From positions 1-45,051 of the IMG/VR virus record IMGVR_UViG_3300006853_000025: a DNA stretch of 45,051 nt, one strand, 5' to 3'. Both the position numbers and the translations under genes were made by a program. Positions within the stretch are counted from its first letter, which is position 1; each line of letters starts with the position of its first letter. The stretch comes from a virus. The notes beneath the pieces are model-generated. The model worked only from the letters and a program-made list of their open reading frames with translations. It was not told where the DNA came from and did no database searches. This document shows positions 964 to 44,151 of this stretch, piece after piece.

Positions 964-1163
964 AGGCCCTCCACCTTGCCGCACTTCTTGCACTTGTACT
1001 GCACATCGACGGCCGTACATCGCCATACGTCGCTGATGCAATCCCAATCATGACGGCACCATATACGTTGCCACCACTTTGGCGACAACATGAAAAGCAG
1101 AGCAGCGAAGAGCATCGCTGCTAGCACTACGATCAGCATCCACACGCTTGTGTTCAATCCCAT
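960..1163 (-). CDS. small membrane protein with C-terminal zinc-ribbon-like motif
   Basis: 67 residues. A hydrophobic segment at about residues 6-27 (WMLIVVLAAMLFAALLFML) should span the inner membrane. It is followed by a short cytoplasmic tail with WCRHDWDC and KCKKCGK, which looks like a Cys/His metal-binding ribbon of the type common in small phage proteins. The stop overlaps the glycosyltransferase start (ATGA) and the start overlaps the end of the upstream 325-residue gene by 10 bases, so it sits inside the modification cluster. Function unknown. Confidence 0.7.
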   Translation of the reverse strand: MGLNTSVWMLIVVLAAMLFAALLFMLSPKWWQRIWCRHDWDCISDVWRCTAVDVQYKCKKCGKVEGL

Positions 1164-2131
1164 GGCAGATTCTCCTGTACAGGGGCTGTGAACTTGGAAC
1201 GAGTCTTGCCCTCCTTACGCTTGATGCGCATGTACTTGTCGAACTCGCAAAGCGAGTGCTCTATCTCGCGCATTTCAAACGGTGTCTCGCACCTACGCGT
1301 GAGTGCGCTCAGCTTGCGTGGCGCCATCTTCCACAGTGCGCGCATCATGCGGTTATAGTCCGGCCTTGGCTTTCCCGACGGCCACTCGTACGAGCCGCAC
1401 AGCAGCCTATGAATACCGCGCATCGCGCCTGGGCCCGCGTTGGCCCAAGATAGCTTGTCCTTCGCATCAGCGAGCAATCGCGTGTGGCGAAGGTCACACA
1501 CGATCTCATACGCAATGAAAGGCCCTATGGTCGGGACCTTCTGTAGCAGCTGTGTTGCGAAGCGCATCGACATCTTGCGCTTGATCTTGCGTGCGAACAA
1601 TCTACGGTTAGGCGGTCGCTGCGGCAAGCCTTTTAGCCGGCGCTCTTCCATGTCCTTGGGGTCGCGACCGTCCCACAACACTTCTAGCGCTTCAGATATC
1701 GTCTTAGCCTTGTCCGGCTTACCTGCCGACGGGATGATGTACGCGCCAGTGAAGATCTGCTTGCCTTCTGCCTTGCGAGCGTGAAGTATCTCTATGGCTT
1801 TGGCCAGATTCCATTTGCGTGGCGCTAGCCCATAGTCCAGGGCGTCGTAGGTTTCCGGCCAGTTGAACAACCGGAACATGGCGACTCTGAACAGTAGATC
1901 TTCATCCTTTTCCACCGCCTTGCTTCCTAGCATGGTGATGTATCTACGGACCCACTCTTGCGTGACCCGGTCATGCTGTCTGAACGGGTTGGTGAACTTG
2001 TACTCCTGCAGTATGCGATCCTTGGTCCAAGGAAAAGGCTTGCCAGTCTTGCGCGACTCGTAGATCTTGTGGCGCTCGTTGATCCAATACCAGAACATGC
2101 GCAATTGCTGCGCTCTCCATTTGATCTTCAT
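1154..2131 (-). CDS. putative DNA base hypermodification enzyme (alpha-glutamyl/putrescinyl-thymine pyrophosphorylase or HMUDK helical-domain family)
   Basis: 325 residues. The N-terminal segment (WYWINERHKIYESRK, KPFPWTKDRILQEYKF, TNPFRQHDRVTQEWV, residues about 14-62) is the characteristic opening of the phage family predicted to have a DNA-glycosylase-like helical fold. In phages with hypermodified thymine, members transfer an amino acid or polyamine to activated 5-hydroxymethyl-dU in DNA. The central part (FATQLLQKVPTIGPFIAYEI) fits the helix-hairpin-helix region, and ANAGPGAMRGIHRLL is also typical. The start overlaps the upstream stop as ATGA. The expected partner, a canonical 5-hmdU DNA kinase, is not evident in the window, but a TS-like enzyme, a sulfotransferase-like P-loop protein and a glycosyltransferase lie immediately downstream. 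The exact transferred group cannot be read from sequence. Confidence 0.75.
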   Translation of the reverse strand: MKIKWRAQQLRMFWYWINERHKIYESRKTGKPFPWTKDRILQEYKFTNPFRQHDRVTQEWVRRYITMLGSKAVEKDEDLLFRVAMFRLFNWPETYDALDYGLAPRKWNLAKAIEILHARKAEGKQIFTGAYIIPSAGKPDKAKTISEALEVLWDGRDPKDMEERRLKGLPQRPPNRRLFARKIKRKMSMRFATQLLQKVPTIGPFIAYEIVCDLRHTRLLADAKDKLSWANAGPGAMRGIHRLLCGSYEWPSGKPRPDYNRMMRALWKMAPRKLSALTRRCETPFEMREIEHSLCEFDKYMRIKRKEGKTRSKFTAPVQENLPWD

Positions 2132-16042: not shown

Positions 16043-16242
16043 CTTGCTCTCCTGCTGTAGACATCCCAAAGCGTAGGCGCCTGCTTGGCCAGCTTCAGCT
16101 CCTCGCTCCAAACTTCTATCGCGATGTCGACAGCCTCTTCAGGCGAGCCGACGCTCGTGTTTCCCTCGACGACGAAGAACCCTTTATCAGACTCGACGCC
16201 TCTGATAGTACGGCGTCTAGTCTTGTGCTTGATGATTCTCAC
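16027..16242 (-). CDS. hypothetical protein
   Basis: 71 residues from GTG 16242, overlapping the upstream stop as GTGA after GGAGGGCAGAGAA. Composition: RIIKHKTRRRTIRG, then GFFVVEGNTSVGSPEEAVDI, with a helical end. It resembles its downstream neighbour in size and in the beta-then-helix arrangement. Function unknown. Confidence 0.6.
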   Translation of the reverse strand: MRIIKHKTRRRTIRGVESDKGFFVVEGNTSVGSPEEAVDIAIEVWSEELKLAKQAPTLWDVYSRRARCVAG

Positions 16243-17111
16243 TTCTCTGCCCTCCACTTGGCTACAGCCTTGGCCACCTTGCGCCTTGCCTGTTCTACAG
16301 CCTTCTTCGACCACGACCGTGCAGCAGGGTGTGGCAGCTTTACTATCTGCGCACCACTGGCCATGCTCGGCTCGAATGTGGCCTGCGCCACGTTGCCACA
16401 GACTATCACTATGTCTGTCTGCAGCTTGCTTAGGTTAGCCGACAACCATTCCTTGCTCGGCTTGCCCTTGCTGCGTGCGCTGTGAACCAGCTGCGGGCAA
16501 GCATTGGTCACGCGAAAGTCTTGATGACCGATGATGTCGATCAAGCGCCGGCCCGAATGATTGTACGGATTTATATGGAACCAGCGCTGCACCTTGTCAG
16601 TCGGCATGCCCCACATGACTTCCAGTACGACCACGATCTTCGGCCTTGCCGCACGCAGCCTTTCAAGCGTTGGCCCATCTACGTGCATCGGCTCGGATAG
16701 CTCGCCGTCGAAGTATCCGTACAGCACGTCGCGCACCATCTTGATGACCTTGTTGCTGCAACCGTGCGCCCTCAACAGCACCTCGTCAGCGTCGTTCACT
16801 GGCAGCGCCACGTTCTCGAACGCGTCGTTATCGCCGGGCATCGGTTTTAGGTCTTTGCGAAAGAGTGGCTCGAACGTCAGCCGATTCTCTTCGGTGTTCA
16901 AGTTCTTACCTAGCAAGCCCTTCACCGTCTTACCCTTGAGCGACATTAAGATGCCTTCGGCAGTCATGAACTTGTTGCGCCACCGTTCCGGTACGACGTA
17001 CTCTTTGTTGAGTACGCGGAAGTTGCCATTGTCACCATCCGACAAGGCGAATGCCTTGCACAGCATGGGCAGTTCCGTGATCTTCAGAGGCGACTGTGTC
17101 GACTTACTCAT
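16239..17111 (-). CDS. UDG-superfamily-like protein
   Basis: 290 residues. The C-terminal half has elements in the order seen in uracil-DNA-glycosylase-superfamily proteins: INPYNHSGRR (Asn181, motif-I-like), FRVTNACPQLV, KLQTDIVIVCGNVAQATF and LPHPAARSW (His261, the HPS/HPA motif). The N-terminal about 150 residues are unrecognised. AAGGAGATCGAA precedes the ATG. In a phage suspected of thymine modification it could excise host or unmodified uracil, or read or protect a modified base, but catalysis is not assured. The assignment is by motif order only. Confidence 0.5.
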   Translation of the reverse strand: MSKSTQSPLKITELPMLCKAFALSDGDNGNFRVLNKEYVVPERWRNKFMTAEGILMSLKGKTVKGLLGKNLNTEENRLTFEPLFRKDLKPMPGDNDAFENVALPVNDADEVLLRAHGCSNKVIKMVRDVLYGYFDGELSEPMHVDGPTLERLRAARPKIVVVLEVMWGMPTDKVQRWFHINPYNHSGRRLIDIIGHQDFRVTNACPQLVHSARSKGKPSKEWLSANLSKLQTDIVIVCGNVAQATFEPSMASGAQIVKLPHPAARSWSKKAVEQARRKVAKAVAKWRAEK

Positions 17112-21441: not shown

Positions 21442-21617
21442 GAACTGTAGGGCCGTACATGGGTGAGCCGATGCCGCTCCGAGAAATAAAGCGCATCGTT
21501 CCGTGGTTTCGAGTACGGAGAGTCTCTAGCAATCTTGTCGTGGCCGTCAAGCGCAGATCGCGCAGATCGCGCAGTCAGGCTCATCAGCGCAAAGTGTGCA
21601 AGGAGCGCGGCTGGTGA
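21438..21617 (+). CDS. 59-residue basic protein between terminase genes
   Basis: ATG 21438 overlaps the terS stop (ATGA), with AGGAGAAGAAGCA in front. The stop TGA 21615 overlaps the terL GTG start (GTGA). MRTVGPYMGEPMPLREIKRI is followed by a very basic stretch (KRRSRRSRSQAHQRK) encoded by a short 9-base direct repeat. It fills the gap between the two terminase genes exactly, so translation is probably coupled. Function unknown. Confidence 0.6.
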   Translation: MRTVGPYMGEPMPLREIKRIVPWFRVRRVSSNLVVAVKRRSRRSRSQAHQRKVCKERGW

Positions 21618-22924
21618 GCTATCAGTTCCGCCAAGGCACGACACTGCAGATCCCGACTGCGCGAGTGTTCCAGCCTCTCCTGGGGCCAGCGCGATACAAA
21701 GGCGCTGATGGCGGACGTGGCTCCGGAAAGACTTCGTTCTTCGCTGGCAACCTCATCGAGGAGTGCATCGTAGTTCCTGGTACGCGGGCCGTCTGCATTC
21801 GCGAGGTGCAGAAGACTCTCGCGCACTCCAGCATGCTCGTGCTCGCGGATACGATTCACAAGTACAAGCTCGCTGACGAGTTCGATATCCAGAAGTCCCG
21901 CATCCTCACTCCAGGAGGCGGAGAGATCATCTTCAACGGGATGCAGAATTACAATGCAGAGAACATCAAGTCTCTTGAAGGCTTCCGTATCGGATGGGTT
22001 GAAGAGGCACAGACTCTCAGCCAGCGGTCTCTCGACCTGCTGCGCCCTACGCTGCGACTCGATCCTGTGCCTGGAGTGCACCACGGATCCGAGATGTGGT
22101 TCAGTTGGAACGGTAGGGACGAGCGCGATCCCGTTGACGCTTTCTTCAAGGGCGGCGAACGACCGCCAGATTCCGTCATGGTCACGGCGAACTTCAGGGA
22201 TAACCCGTGGTTTCCCGAAGTCCTAGAAAAGGAGCGTCAATGGGATCAGCGCCGCGATCCTGACAAGTACAATCACATCTGGGAGGGCGGGTACCTCAAG
22301 CGCTCGAAGGCGAACGTGTTCTCCAACTGGAGGACCGAAGAGTTCGAGACTCCGAGCGACGCGTTCTTCTATGGCGGAGCGGACTGGGGGTTCAGCATAG
22401 ATCCGAGCGTCCTCGTACGATGCTTCATACAGGACCGCACGCTATACGTGGATCACGAGGCGTATGCCGTTGGGTGTGACATCGACTTTACTCCATTCCT
22501 GTTCGCAGGCATGGAGGATCGAGAGGTCAACACGCTGAACGCCGTCGCGCTGAAGAAGCTGGTGCAGTCGGGGAAGCGTTACTCTGGAGTTCCAGGATGC
22601 AGGAACTTCGAGATCAGCGCGGATAGCGCTCGTCCCGAGACGATCAACTACATGAAGCGCCACGGCTTCCCGAAGATCGTCAGCAGTATCAAGGGCGCAG
22701 GATCGTTGGAGGAAGGCATCGAGTTCCTGAAGGGCTTCGATATCGTGGTCCACCCTCGCTGCCGCCATGTGATCGATGAGCTGACATTCTACAAGTGGAA
22801 GATAGATAAGGACACCGAAGAGGTCACGAATGAGTTGGAAGACAAAAAGAACCACACCATCGACGCGCTGCGCTACGCGATCGAGAAGCTTCGTAGGAAA
22901 CGCAAGCGCTCCGGCACTTGGTAG
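21614..22924 (+). CDS. terL: terminase large subunit
   Basis: 436 residues from GTG 21614 (MSYQFRQG), 8 bases after AAGGAG; a frame start at 21596 is less likely. ATPase: Walker A GGRGSGKT (33-40) and Walker B GWVEEAQ. Nuclease: GADWGFSIDPS, SADSARPE and NHTIDALRYA provide the RNase-H-like acidic residues. It is the packaging motor and cuts concatemeric DNA. The packaging mode (cos, pac) cannot be read from this alone. Confidence 0.95.
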   Translation: MSYQFRQGTTLQIPTARVFQPLLGPARYKGADGGRGSGKTSFFAGNLIEECIVVPGTRAVCIREVQKTLAHSSMLVLADTIHKYKLADEFDIQKSRILTPGGGEIIFNGMQNYNAENIKSLEGFRIGWVEEAQTLSQRSLDLLRPTLRLDPVPGVHHGSEMWFSWNGRDERDPVDAFFKGGERPPDSVMVTANFRDNPWFPEVLEKERQWDQRRDPDKYNHIWEGGYLKRSKANVFSNWRTEEFETPSDAFFYGGADWGFSIDPSVLVRCFIQDRTLYVDHEAYAVGCDIDFTPFLFAGMEDREVNTLNAVALKKLVQSGKRYSGVPGCRNFEISADSARPETINYMKRHGFPKIVSSIKGAGSLEEGIEFLKGFDIVVHPRCRHVIDELTFYKWKIDKDTEEVTNELEDKKNHTIDALRYAIEKLRRKRKRSGTW

Positions 22925-24024: not shown

Positions 24025-25905
24025 ATGCCGACGAAACCGAAGGGCGCTGGTCTGCTGCGTGTCATGTCAGCAGTCGGCGCGACTACGCGGGCCCTCATCG
24101 CGAAGCTGCATGGGCAGCAGTTCGATGGTGCTCGCGATCTGTACGACGTGTGCGGGTATCCTCGTGCGCTGATGCCATCTGACTACGAGGGCGCGTATCT
24201 ACGCGGCGATATCGCCGCACGCATCTTGGACGCATTTCCGGATGCGACGTGGAGAGAGTCCCCTGTCATCAAGGCTGAGAGCGACAAGACAGGAGAGGGC
24301 GCATTCAAGAAGGCCGTGGATGCGCTGGCCGAGGAGACGAAGCTCTGGTACGCACTCAGTCGTTTGGATCGGCTAGCCGGCATGGGGCACTACGGAGTCA
24401 TGTTGATAGGCATGGCGGGCGCAGAGCCTCTTACTGAGCCTGTGAGGGGCAAGTCCGAGAAGATCATCTACCTGTCTCCGCACAGTGAGCGCAGTGCAGA
24501 CGTGACTCGTTGGGATGACAACGCAACGAGCCCGCGCTTCGGCAAGCCTGAACTTTACAACCTCACGATCGGCGTGGGGCGCACAGGGCAAGGAGGCGGA
24601 GAGCGTCGCGTCACGGTGCATCACTCTCGAGTGATTCATGTGGCTGAGAAGGCGTTGAGTGATGAGGCTATCGGACAGCCTCGTCTGGAGCGCATCTGGA
24701 ACAGGCTGATGGATCTGGACAAGACTCTCGGTGGATCGGCTGAGGTCTACTGGCAAAACGCCGCCATGATCCGTGCGTGGGTCGCAGATCCTGAGGTCGA
24801 GTGGGATCCTAAGGAGCAGGAGGATATGAAGGCTCAGCTCGAAGAGCTCATGCACGGCCTGCGCCGTGACGTTCGCCTGCGCGGTGTTGCGCCCGAAGTG
24901 CTTTCGGGCAATCCCACAGATCCTACGGGAGTGTTCGATAAGCTCATCGATATCATCGCAGGCGCGCAGGGAATCCCGAAGCGCATTCTCATAGGCTCGG
25001 AGCGCGGCGAACTCAGCTCTGAGCAGGATGAAGTGAACTGGGCCTCGCGTATCCAAGAGCGTCGCAAGCACTATGCGGAGCCTCTGGTGATTCGTCCGTT
25101 CATCGACCGATGCATTGAGTACGGTATCTTGAAGATGCCGGAAGGCGGCAAGTACATTGTTGAGTGGGCCAATGCCGACGCGCTCGGTGAGCAGAGCAAG
25201 GCGGAAGTCGCAGAGCGGAAGTCTAACGCGCTACGGAACTACGTGAGCACTCCAGGCGCAGAGTTCGTTGTGCCGCAGGAAGAGTTCCGCACGTCGTTCC
25301 TCGGCCTCGATCCTGTGAGCCAGTACACTGGCGAAGCGCTCGAAGGCCGCGAGGCTCCGGTCGATGAAAGCAACCCTGAGGTCGCTGATGAGTTTGCACA
25401 GAACAGACTAAAGGCGAATGCGAAGCCTCGCACGCTCTATGTGAGGCGCAACGTCCTCAACGCGAAGGACATCTTGCGTTGGGCGTCAGAGCAAGGATTT
25501 GCTAGCGTCGTGCCGGGCGATGAGATGCACGTGACTATCGCCTATAGCGAGCAGCCTGTCGATTGGCTCAAGGTGGGCGAGTCGTATAGTCAGGAGCGCG
25601 ACGGTTCTATGCGTGTCGCACCAGGGGGCGCGCGTCTTGTCGAAGAGCTGGGCTCAGATGACGCTATCGTTCTCATGTTCACCAGCTCCGAGCTTAGCTG
25701 GCGCTGGTTCCACATCAAGGAGTGCGGAGCTTCGTGGAAGTATGGCGAGGACTACCAGCCCCACATCACGATCACCTACGAGGGAGATCCGGAGCTGGAC
25801 CTTACCAGAATCGAGCCGTACAGAGGACCGATAGTCCTCGGACCTGAGATCTTCGAAGAGGTAGTCGACGACTGGTCGTCTGACCTCGAAGAGGTGAGCG
25901 CGTGA
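24025..25905 (+). CDS. portal protein (DUF1073-like) fused to an Acb1-type anti-CBASS domain
   Basis: 626 residues. Residues about 1-450 form a DUF1073-type portal (GDIAARILDAFPDATWRESP, AGAQGIPKRILIGSERGELS, VNWASRIQERR), the dodecameric DNA gate of the head. From about residue 470 the sequence changes to a two-histidine phosphoesterase domain: RTLYVRRNVLNAKDILRWA, MHVTIAYSEQPVDW (H502, T504), WRWFHIKECGASWKYG and PHITITYE (H580, T582). Acb1 enzymes hydrolyse cyclic oligonucleotide signals of CBASS defence, and portal-Acb1 fusions are known in this family. Both HxT motifs are intact. Confidence 0.88.
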   Translation: MPTKPKGAGLLRVMSAVGATTRALIAKLHGQQFDGARDLYDVCGYPRALMPSDYEGAYLRGDIAARILDAFPDATWRESPVIKAESDKTGEGAFKKAVDALAEETKLWYALSRLDRLAGMGHYGVMLIGMAGAEPLTEPVRGKSEKIIYLSPHSERSADVTRWDDNATSPRFGKPELYNLTIGVGRTGQGGGERRVTVHHSRVIHVAEKALSDEAIGQPRLERIWNRLMDLDKTLGGSAEVYWQNAAMIRAWVADPEVEWDPKEQEDMKAQLEELMHGLRRDVRLRGVAPEVLSGNPTDPTGVFDKLIDIIAGAQGIPKRILIGSERGELSSEQDEVNWASRIQERRKHYAEPLVIRPFIDRCIEYGILKMPEGGKYIVEWANADALGEQSKAEVAERKSNALRNYVSTPGAEFVVPQEEFRTSFLGLDPVSQYTGEALEGREAPVDESNPEVADEFAQNRLKANAKPRTLYVRRNVLNAKDILRWASEQGFASVVPGDEMHVTIAYSEQPVDWLKVGESYSQERDGSMRVAPGGARLVEELGSDDAIVLMFTSSELSWRWFHIKECGASWKYGEDYQPHITITYEGDPELDLTRIEPYRGPIVLGPEIFEEVVDDWSSDLEEVSA

Positions 25906-26756
25906 TGCATAGTCACGTGCATACGAACGACGTATTCCGCGTTGATCCGACGCGGACTACTTCGTTGCGCCAGCGATTCGAGAGCGACCTTGCGCGTCGA
26001 TTCGAGAAGCTGAAGCGCCTCGTTACGCAGGTCGTAGAGAACGACAACGGCTTCGGGCTTGCTACAAATGCCGGCAGGTTCGCGTTTGATAGCGATGCGC
26101 AGAAGGCCACAGCGTTCATGCGATGGCTGCGTGAGCAAGCGCGTTCAGGAGTGCTGGAGGTCAAAGAGGGCGAAGCGATCGCCTCTGTGAAGAAGCCTTG
26201 GACCAACAAGTACATCACATCGGCGTATCAGAAGGGGGTGGCGAACGCGGCGTCGAAGCTGAAGGGCGCAGGGGCGAGGGTTTCCGACAAGTGGATAGAC
26301 GCCTCGTTCTTTCGTCCGGTACATGCGGATCGTATCGCGCAGATCTACACGCGAACGTATCGTGATCTTGAAGGCATCACAAAGGAGATGGACAGGCGCA
26401 TCAGTCAGACGTTGGCGCTTGGACTTGCTGAGGGCAGAAGTCCGAAGGATTTGGCACGCGAGCTGAACCAGACGATAGAATCGATTGGCATCACGCGCGC
26501 GCGTACGCTCGCACGCACGGAGGTAATCGCGGCGCACAGCGAGGCCAATCTCACAGCGTTCGAAGAGGCTGGAGTGGAGGGCGTTGAGGTCGAGGCGGAA
26601 CTTAGCACGGCGACCGATGCGTGTCCGCTTTGCGAGGCGCTTGAAGGCAACGTGTACACGATAGCTGAGGCGCGCGGGCTGATACCAGTTCATCCGAACT
26701 GTCGCTGCGCTTGGACACCGAAGATAGTGAATGGCACGGGCATCGAACTGAGGTAA
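25902..26756 (+). CDS. head morphogenesis protein, SPP1 gp7/Mu gpF-like
   Basis: 284 residues from GTG 25902, overlapping the portal stop (ATG 25905 is an alternative). The C-terminus ATDACPLCEALEGNVYTIAE and IPVHPNCRCAWTP is the diagnostic Cys/His end of the Mu gpF-like family, preceded by a helical part with RARTLARTEVIAAHSEAN. These proteins are minor head components made next to the portal and assist head assembly or DNA ejection. Confidence 0.9.
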   Translation: MMHSHVHTNDVFRVDPTRTTSLRQRFESDLARRFEKLKRLVTQVVENDNGFGLATNAGRFAFDSDAQKATAFMRWLREQARSGVLEVKEGEAIASVKKPWTNKYITSAYQKGVANAASKLKGAGARVSDKWIDASFFRPVHADRIAQIYTRTYRDLEGITKEMDRRISQTLALGLAEGRSPKDLARELNQTIESIGITRARTLARTEVIAAHSEANLTAFEEAGVEGVEVEAELSTATDACPLCEALEGNVYTIAEARGLIPVHPNCRCAWTPKIVNGTGIELR

Positions 26757-26761
26757 TGGCA

Positions 26762-27982
26762 ATGAGCAGTAAGACAGCGGTGTTCGGCGCACTCAAGATA
26801 CACGCCGACAAGATCCGTCAGGAGACATTCGACGGGCGTCCACACACAGTCTTGCCTGCGATCATCGCGATCGATGGCGTGATGAATGGCGCGAAGGTCA
26901 CCGCCGAAGAGCTTGGGAAGTACGTCGATAGTTGGAATGGCCGGCCAATTCCGTTGCTCCATCCGCAGAAGGCCGGCGAACCGGTGAGCGCTAATCTACC
27001 GGATGTTCTTGAGCGCAGAGTGGGCACCGTATTCAATGCGTCTATGGATGGCGACGCATTGAAGGCTGAGTTCTGGATTGACAACGAGCGCATGGATCGC
27101 ATAGGGGAGACTAGTATGCTCTCCAACATGGTGGAGGGCAGGGTCGTCATGGAGGTCAGCACAGCATACTTCTGCGACGTCGTCTTGAACGTCGGAGAGT
27201 ACAAGGGTAAGAAGCATGAGGTCGAGCACAGAAATCTGCGGCCCGACCATGTGGCTCTGCTGCCCGAAGAGATCGGGGCATGCAGCGTAGGTGATGGGTG
27301 CGGGGTTCCCCGCGTAAACAAACTGAGGTTCACTATGAACGAGGCACTGAAGACACTGATGAAGGCGCTTGGCCTTCAGACGAACTGCGCGGCGGACAAT
27401 ACTGCCGAGATCGCAGCCAACGTGCTGAAGATTGCCGAGAAGCTGAAGGCGAACGGCAAGCTCACTGGCAAGCAGTTCGAATCGCTGGCCGAAATGGACG
27501 AGGAGCAGCGCGGCATGGTCGGCGCCATCCTCGGCGCTATGGGCGAAGCCGACAAGGCTGCGGCCAAGGCGGCGAAGGCCAAGGCGAAGGACAACGCTGC
27601 GGATGACGAAGAGGACTACACGGAGGAAGAGCCGGCGAAGAACAAGGCCAAGACCAACGGTCGCGAACCGGTGATGATGTCGACCAAGGATATCAACGCG
27701 CTGATCGACAAGCGTGTCACCGAGGGCGTGGAGGCTCGTGAGCGCGCGTCGGTCGTGGAGACGATCAAGGCCAATTCGGCCAACACCTTCGATGACGACG
27801 AGCTGCAGGGCATGTCGCTCGCTGCGCTGCAGAAGTACGAGAAGTCGCTGCGTCCGGTGGACTACTCCGGCCAGGGCGGCTTCGCGACCCATCAGGGCAC
27901 GCAGCTGACGAAGCACAAGCCGCTTCTTCTGAACCACGGCGTTCTCACTGCGCCGAAGAAGGAAGCGGCGAAGGCCAACTGA
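26762..27982 (+). CDS. DUF2213 prohead protease-scaffold fusion
   Basis: 406 residues from ATG 26762, 7 bases after GAGGT; ATG 26756 (TAATG) is possible. The N-terminal about 200 residues match DUF2213, a prohead protease-like domain (RPIPLLHPQKAGE, VVMEVSTAYFCDVV, HVALLPEEIGACSVGDGCG). The C-terminal half is helical and rich in Ala/Lys/Glu (AEIAANVLKIAEKLKANGKL, ADKAAAKAAKAKAKDNAADD), typical of a scaffold. Located directly before decoration and capsid genes. It should template the prohead and then be cleaved. Confidence 0.82.
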   Translation: MSSKTAVFGALKIHADKIRQETFDGRPHTVLPAIIAIDGVMNGAKVTAEELGKYVDSWNGRPIPLLHPQKAGEPVSANLPDVLERRVGTVFNASMDGDALKAEFWIDNERMDRIGETSMLSNMVEGRVVMEVSTAYFCDVVLNVGEYKGKKHEVEHRNLRPDHVALLPEEIGACSVGDGCGVPRVNKLRFTMNEALKTLMKALGLQTNCAADNTAEIAANVLKIAEKLKANGKLTGKQFESLAEMDEEQRGMVGAILGAMGEADKAAAKAAKAKAKDNAADDEEDYTEEEPAKNKAKTNGREPVMMSTKDINALIDKRVTEGVEARERASVVETIKANSANTFDDDELQGMSLAALQKYEKSLRPVDYSGQGGFATHQGTQLTKHKPLLLNHGVLTAPKKEAAKAN

Positions 27983-42972: not shown

Positions 42973-44151
42973 CTACTTCTGACGTCGACGTTCCAACCAA
43001 CGGATGCAGGCTGTCGACCAATCCTCTGCCTCGCAGCGCTCTTGCAGATGGGCTTGTGCAGCGTCGATCTTAGTGTTCTTGTCGACTACCTCATCGTCGT
43101 TCTTATACAGTCGCCACGCCGTCATCATAGGCACCGCCACGCTGTGGAAGAACGGCATGATGCGCCCGCCATAGGTGCCTAACCTGTCGTTGAGGAAGTA
43201 GTGGTTCTGTGCCAGCCACTCTCCCCATCGTGGGGCGCTTTCATCAGTCGGCATGAGTGGAACAAGATTGAATCTGGACCGTCCGAACTGATCTGCATAC
43301 GGATCACCATGGCCAACGTCTTCCGCATAAGAAGCGCTGCACTTGAGCCAAGTGTTCTGGCTGGTGTAGACGTGGAAGCTATCGCTGACCTGACGATAGC
43401 ATCCGACTTCGACACCCACGGCGCACGCTACGAACTCTTGTAACATGCTGAACTGAACAGCGTTGGCGCCGTAGGCTCCCCACATGGCGTCGTTGCTGCG
43501 ATTCATGACGGTCATGTCCAACACGCCGTCGCGCAACTTGAACGCGACCAAGTCGTTGCAGGGGATATCCTTGCTCTCACGGTTCAAATCCTTGACTGGA
43601 TCCCACAGGCACAGCACAGCACGACGCGTATCCGGATCTCGCCGTAGTAGCTCTACGATCTCAACGACCTGATCTACCGTCTCCATGCCCACGATGGCGC
43701 GCTCCTCGGGGTGGAAGGAGTAGTTGATTTCCGTACCGAATATCGCGGTCTTGAAGTGTCGTCGCAGTCTGTAGCCGTACGGCGCATTGAACGTCTTGCC
43801 ATCGTCGCTGAACGTGCTGATGTTCGAGTTGAACTGGTTCAGAAACGCCACGTCGTCTCGCCCGTCCATGATCCACAACGCCTCCATGAAGTGGAAGAAC
43901 GGATTGGCGTCGCGCACCGGATTGAACAGCACGCGCTCTTTTGGACAAGCGTACTCTGTAACGAACACTCCCCGGTACTCCAGCGTTTCCATGCCGCGCG
44001 GAGAGATGGTGCGCCATAGCTGCGGTATCTGCGCGAGGCCCATCAGATGGTTGAACGCCTCGTTCACATTACGAACCGAAGCGATATGCACGTTGCCTAT
44101 ACGCTGACTGCGCGTGGCACCAGAGCCGTGCCCGTGTATGAAGTTGGTCAT
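42973..44151 (-). CDS. thymidylate-synthase family enzyme, possible dUMP hydroxymethylase
   Basis: 392 residues. TS-family features: RRAVLCLWDPVKDL (phosphate-binding Arg), DIPCNDLVAFKLRDGVL with nucleophilic Cys198 (His of the usual PCH is Asn), MNRSNDAMWGAYGANAVQF (Asn near the base-specificity position, which suggests a uracil rather than cytosine substrate) and DSFHVY. Phages with modified thymine use such a homologue to make 5-hydroxymethyl-dUMP instead of dTMP. The extended N- and C-termini and the PCN change differ from ordinary ThyA. It precedes DUF3310 and follows the sulfotransferase-like gene. Ordinary thymidylate synthase activity is the alternative. Confidence 0.8.
   Translation of the reverse strand: MTNFIHGHGSGATRSQRIGNVHIASVRNVNEAFNHLMGLAQIPQLWRTISPRGMETLEYRGVFVTEYACPKERVLFNPVRDANPFFHFMEALWIMDGRDDVAFLNQFNSNISTFSDDGKTFNAPYGYRLRRHFKTAIFGTEINYSFHPEERAIVGMETVDQVVEIVELLRRDPDTRRAVLCLWDPVKDLNRESKDIPCNDLVAFKLRDGVLDMTVMNRSNDAMWGAYGANAVQFSMLQEFVACAVGVEVGCYRQVSDSFHVYTSQNTWLKCSASYAEDVGHGDPYADQFGRSRFNLVPLMPTDESAPRWGEWLAQNHYFLNDRLGTYGGRIMPFFHSVAVPMMTAWRLYKNDDEVVDKNTKIDAAQAHLQERCEAEDWSTACIRWLERRRQK

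Follow-up and report, generated by a model that had tools for sequence, protein, structure and literature searches.

The window, as we call the stretch of DNA analyzed here, is 45,051 bases long and corresponds to an IMG/VR virus record. It encodes a 626-residue protein (24025-25905, forward strand) that consists of a DUF1073-type portal and a C-terminal Acb1 domain, with a flexible linker between the two (Table 1). The portal profile PF06381 (DUF1073) spans residues 54-401, with a score of 128 bits against a cut-off of 33.8 (E about 5e-37). In VIA-align, the fold of the portal body matches the portals of Sf11 (9yin, Z 30.4) and Pam3 (8hds, Z 22.2), and many portals are found among its Foldseek matches, so that both profile and fold place the protein in Phage_portal_3 / DUF1073. 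Residues 36-619 match PHROG 146 ('portal protein'), a family that thus already includes fused proteins. A tail motif (DExxPEVxxxF) resembling part of the linker terminates several relatives lacking the Acb1 domain.

Table 1 Features of the portal-Acb1 fusion and of other genes in the window
Feature	Position	Strand	Evidence or remark
5-hmdU DNA kinase helical domain	1154-2131	-	
Uracil-DNA glycosylase family protein	16239-17111	-	
Terminase large subunit, upstream of portal	21596-22924	+	PF04466, PF17288
Portal-Acb1 fusion protein, 626 aa	24025-25905	+	ORF; PF06381 and PF23474; phrog_146 spans residues 36-619
Portal body, residues 1 to about 440	24025-25344	+	PF06381; VIA-align to Sf11 and Pam3 portals
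Linker, residues 441-468, short helix 451-464	25345-25428	+	Model pLDDT 54-73 over blocks 441-470, lowest at 442-446
Acb1 2H phosphodiesterase domain (by profile and fold), residues 469-626	25429-25905	+	PF23474; predicted structure
Y472, equivalent of Acb1 Y12, base stacking	25438-25440	+	Y in 44/45 fused domains
First HxT motif, H502-V-T504	25528-25536	+	H and T in 45/45; motif used in one of two search patterns, hence partly circular
Y573, equivalent of Acb1 F107, base stacking	25741-25743	+	W/Y/F in 42/45
Second HxT motif, H580-I-T582	25762-25770	+	H in 45/45; T in 43, S in 2; absent from search patterns
E611, equivalent of Acb1 E141, adenine N6 contact	25855-25857	+	E in 36/45
W617, equivalent of Acb1 W147, C-terminal lid	25873-25875	+	W in 33/45
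MuF / SPP1 gp7-like head morphogenesis protein	25902-26756	+	PF04233, phrog_758; start overlaps portal stop by 4 bases
DUF2213 protein, downstream	26711-27982	+	PF09979; weak likeness to head maturation proteases, phrog_2229 E 1.5e-10
Thymidylate synthase homologue	42973-44151	-	

The original prediction placed an Acb1-type domain on the portal C-terminus from base 25435 (L471), two residues from the border given by Pfam (residue 469, base 25429), and this assignment is borne out by profile, fold and most of the substrate-contact residues. The PF23474 Acb1 profile scores 127-129 bits over residues 469-619 (cut-off 27), with E = 5.7e-37 when the whole protein is searched and 1.5e-37 when the C-terminal stretch is searched alone, a match far beyond chance. 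An AlphaFold2 model of the full 626-residue protein, built from an alignment of 88 sequences, has a mean pLDDT of 88.5, with values of about 83-98 over the blocks of the Acb1 domain; folded alone, the domain reaches 89.7. The modeled C-terminal domain superposes on FBB1 Acb1 in complex with cGAMP (7t27), with an RMSD of 1.9-2.0 Å over 135 residues and Z of 16.9 for the domain inside the full model and 15.9 for the domain alone. Across 7t26 and 7t27, the compact 2H fold is matched with Z 15.0-16.9 and RMSD 1.9-2.0 Å over 132-135 residues. The next fits are lower, namely the phosphodiesterase of Burkholderia phage BCSR5 (Z 13.0) and LigT-type 2H enzymes (Z up to 10.8).

Hobbs et al. (2022) described H44, T46, H113 and T115 as the catalytic residues of Acb1, Y12, W74, F107 and W147 as base contacts, and E141 as the adenine contact (PMC9117128); their residue numbers exceed those of the T2 protein, as aligned here, by one. 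The four catalytic residues align with H502/T504 and H580/T582 of the portal fusion, exactly the two intact HxT motifs, in the Acb1 arrangement, that had been picked out from the sequence. The alignment preserves four of the five substrate contacts, with Y12, F107, E141 and W147 corresponding to Y472, Y573, E611 and W617. The fifth, W74 in T4 Acb1, corresponds by sequence alignment to E540 in the window protein and is occupied by a phenylalanine in FBB1 Acb1. Y521, at a position that is tryptophan in 41 of 45 fused domains, may or may not take over the stacking role of W74.

Conservation was assessed on an alignment of 45 portal-fused Acb1 domains, across which both HxT histidines, H502 and H580, are invariant. 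Because H580 was missing from the search patterns, its invariance is not circular; that of the first motif is partly so. Here, portals whose body resembles that of the window are termed A-type, and psageB2/Pam3-like portals B-type. Among 422 overlapping, non-independent B-type pairs, the median omega (Nei-Gojobori) is 0.096 for the Acb1 domain versus 0.083 for the portal body; purifying selection acts on the domain about as strongly as on the portal.

Searching viral contigs with the single window protein returned no relative, and relatives were recovered with alignments as queries. A-type relatives were gathered via the portal body alone, blind to the domain, and near copies were removed. The Acb1 domain is present on five of 83 A-type bodies: the window, L176, and three distant portals found by body only (L115, L150 and L162), whose domains carry HxT/HxT or HxT/HxS. 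The nearest relatives, with the same architecture, are L176 (Gammaproteobacteria MAG ZC4RG20, contig PKRJ01000061) and three IMG/VR contigs; they are 56% identical in the body and 63% in the domain and represent a separate virus lineage. In the body tree, the window and L176 are sisters (SH-aLRT 97) within a supported group of ten A-type portals, the other eight of which, with bodies about 46-56% identical to the window's, have no Acb1 domain; none was found elsewhere in their fetched loci either. The body tree requires at least two changes of domain state, and the domain tree is poorly resolved, so that repeated gain and loss are not separable on it.

The window's domain is 58% identical to that of psageB2-type portals, whose bodies are only 24% identical, versus only 42-44% identity to the domains of other A-type portals, suggesting transfer of the domain in the window's lineage. 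Horizontal transfer from psageB2-type portals was the expected outcome, but a topology with all A-type domains in one clade is not rejected by the AU test (p 0.31). Exchange between related portals is clear only in one B-type pair, L021 and L029, where the body is mostly 83-97% identical in amino acids, the linker and domain drop to 59-72%, and the downstream DNA is again 84% identical. Another B-type pair, L022 and L026, displays the reverse pattern, the domain and downstream region being more similar than the body. The different divergence of domain and body in the two pairs points to recombination near the linker. Together, the existence of domain-less relatives and the replacement of the domain between near relatives argue that this module is kept for its own function.

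The closest domains in the phage collection (57-58% identical) belong to phiPSA1/psageB2-type portals of Pseudomonas phages, which combine DUF1073 with Acb1 and differ from the window in the portal body; psageB2 also lacks the lid tryptophan. T4 and FBB1 Acb1 (gene 57B; 7t26, 7t27) share with the window domain the fold, the HxT/HxT tetrad and equivalents of Y12, E141, W147 and the aromatic F107, but are stand-alone proteins encoded near ipI, about 30% identical, and W74 of T4 Acb1 aligns with E540 of the window protein. The portal of Pseudanabaena phage Pam3 (8hds) has the same organization, with an Acb1 domain (matched at E 7.5e-35) C-terminal to the body, and its gene, like the window's, precedes a minor capsid gene of similar size; the bodies are about 25% identical, and the second Pam3 motif is HxS. 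Rhizobium phage RHph_TM3_3_3 is a further culturable phage with a portal of this architecture. In the cryo-EM entry 8hds, 442 of the 621 deposited residues are modeled and the alignment ends at residue 451, whereas the Acb1 domain lies at 466-619. The Pam3 domain is thus either mobile on its linker or cleaved or otherwise missing from the particle.

Stand-alone relatives occur as well. A 149-residue Acb1-like protein of Rhodobacter phage RcXuper (L012:2989-3435) is 39% identical to the window's fused domain, versus 27-30% for T4-type proteins. Plasmid genes labeled 'phage prohead protease' were considered as Acb1-protease fusions, but those examined are stand-alone Acb1-like genes under a misleading name. 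Three stand-alone genes of this kind on Rhizobium and Rhodovulum plasmids (L199:4001-4438, L201:3010-3378, L200:3001-3438) have no phage structural gene visible nearby. HxT and HxS are retained in L199 and L201, which bear the annotation 'phage prohead protease/protein', whereas neither motif is intact any longer in the Rhodovulum copy.

The novelty implied by the original prediction does not stand, since 2H-portal fusions and the same proposed role are in print, and the Pam3 portal and PHROG 146 contain the fusion. Iyer, Burroughs and Aravind (2022) described 2H domains fused to MuF or portal proteins and proposed that they counter oligonucleotide-based immunity (PMC9503650). In kind, therefore, neither the architecture nor the family assignment nor the hypothesis is new. 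The papers on Acb1, portal and anti-CBASS that were searched for these terms do not discuss the fusion. Among 369 sampled genomes from one class, the sole matches were the portal fusion already known and a weak one below the family cut-off. What is new is the window protein itself, on a portal lineage mostly without the domain, together with the presence and absence of the domain among close relatives, its exchange, and the unmodeled domain in 8hds.

Sequence and structural model suggest that the C-terminal 158 residues are probably a catalytically competent Acb1-type 2H phosphodiesterase directed against CBASS signals and acting late, from new portal and from procapsids. The domain would be produced late in infection, joined to an essential head protein, and would work in the cytoplasm from newly made portal and from portals in procapsids, where the flexible linker would expose it to small diffusible substrates. 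It would hydrolyze cyclic di- and trinucleotide signals 3' of adenosine, independently of metal, and would be in position when CBASS fires late in infection. The portal C-terminus faces the capsid side of the ring. That a particle holds few portal copies counts against this reading. Hobbs et al. tested nine further Acb1 homologues and found each of them active; they also report that Acb1 cleavage in T4 infection coincides in time with CBASS, whose onset is late (PMC9117128). According to a review, a prohead protease interacts with a CBASS sensor, which would put the trigger at head assembly (PMC12409349); a portal-bound Acb1 may be tied to such a trigger. The comparisons made here establish the identity of the domain, its fold, its intact tetrad, the purifying selection on it, and its modular presence, absence and exchange, whereas we infer that it hydrolyzes these signals, that it counters CBASS, and when and where it acts.

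Iyer et al. proposed instead packaging and injection, a reading already in print for 2H domains on MuF or portal (PMC9503650), whereas we favor late action in the infected cell. For the portal of the window, this would mean that the Acb1 domain enters the head during packaging, is released from the portal by the head maturation protease, and passes into the cell along with the injected DNA, ready to act as infection begins. The equivalent Pam3 domain, absent from the 442 of 621 residues built in 8hds, would fit such cleavage, but a flexible linker also accounts for the missing density. The DUF2213 protein encoded just downstream, with its weak likeness to head maturation proteases, also speaks for it and is a candidate for a portal-processing protease. 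An uncut portal ring remains in the capsid, which speaks against it. Given in addition that CBASS signaling starts late, so that an injected enzyme would have to persist (PMC9117128), we consider this route unlikely.

Two further readings concern the chemistry of the domain. It could be a 2H enzyme of the LigT/ThpR type acting on RNA ends with a 2',3'-cyclic phosphate, in RNA repair; the superfamily is the same, LigT_PEase and LigT structures come next after Acb1 among the matches, and a phrog_755 match is labeled 'RNA ligase', although T4-type 57B proteins, which are Acb1, share this label in phage records. The profiles for LigT / RNA 2',3'-cyclic phosphodiesterase do not include the protein, as LigT_PEase (PF02834) scores 15.6-18.8 bits against a cut-off of 23.3 and TIGR02258 11.2 against 65.7, and LigT structures fit clearly worse than Acb1. 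With the adenine-contact and lid residues of Acb1 retained, and with no tRNA gene in the window and no RNA ligase seen among the ORFs scanned, both of which count against RNA repair, this appears quite improbable. Least probable of all is an inactive domain whose sole task in the portal is structural or to contact DNA: it does belong to a structural protein, but the invariance of its catalytic residues, an omega of about 0.1, and its absence from the eight nearest other portals speak against this.

If the late-acting Acb1 enzyme that we favor is active, an immune-evasion enzyme would be built into an essential virion protein, neither could be lost without altering the other, and evasion would be timed with head assembly. 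Close relatives with and without the domain provide a natural experiment: CBASS-positive hosts would allow one kind of portal to be compared in the presence and absence of its enzyme. A broader conjecture, which we regard as unlikely, is that the portal C-terminus is a general docking site for exchangeable enzymes, Acb1 here and topoisomerase IB elsewhere, and that the tethered Acb1 destroys CBASS signals at the procapsid, near the supposed head-protein trigger.

Other A-type portals carry different extensions. Two of them (L135:3896-6874 and L149:1835-4540), in separate places of the body tree, continue in frame, after glycine-rich spacers, into a C-terminal topoisomerase IB (PF01028, E 4e-19 and 2e-24), and two more (L186:4905-6833 and L188:4986-6782) have long C-terminal extensions with no Pfam match.

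Elsewhere in the window, PADLOC gave no match on the seven window proteins submitted, and no integrase turned up in the ORFs that were scanned. A 5-hmdU DNA kinase domain, a thymidylate synthase homologue and a uracil-DNA glycosylase family protein are encoded on the reverse strand, and their combination indicates that the DNA of this phage probably contains hypermodified thymine.
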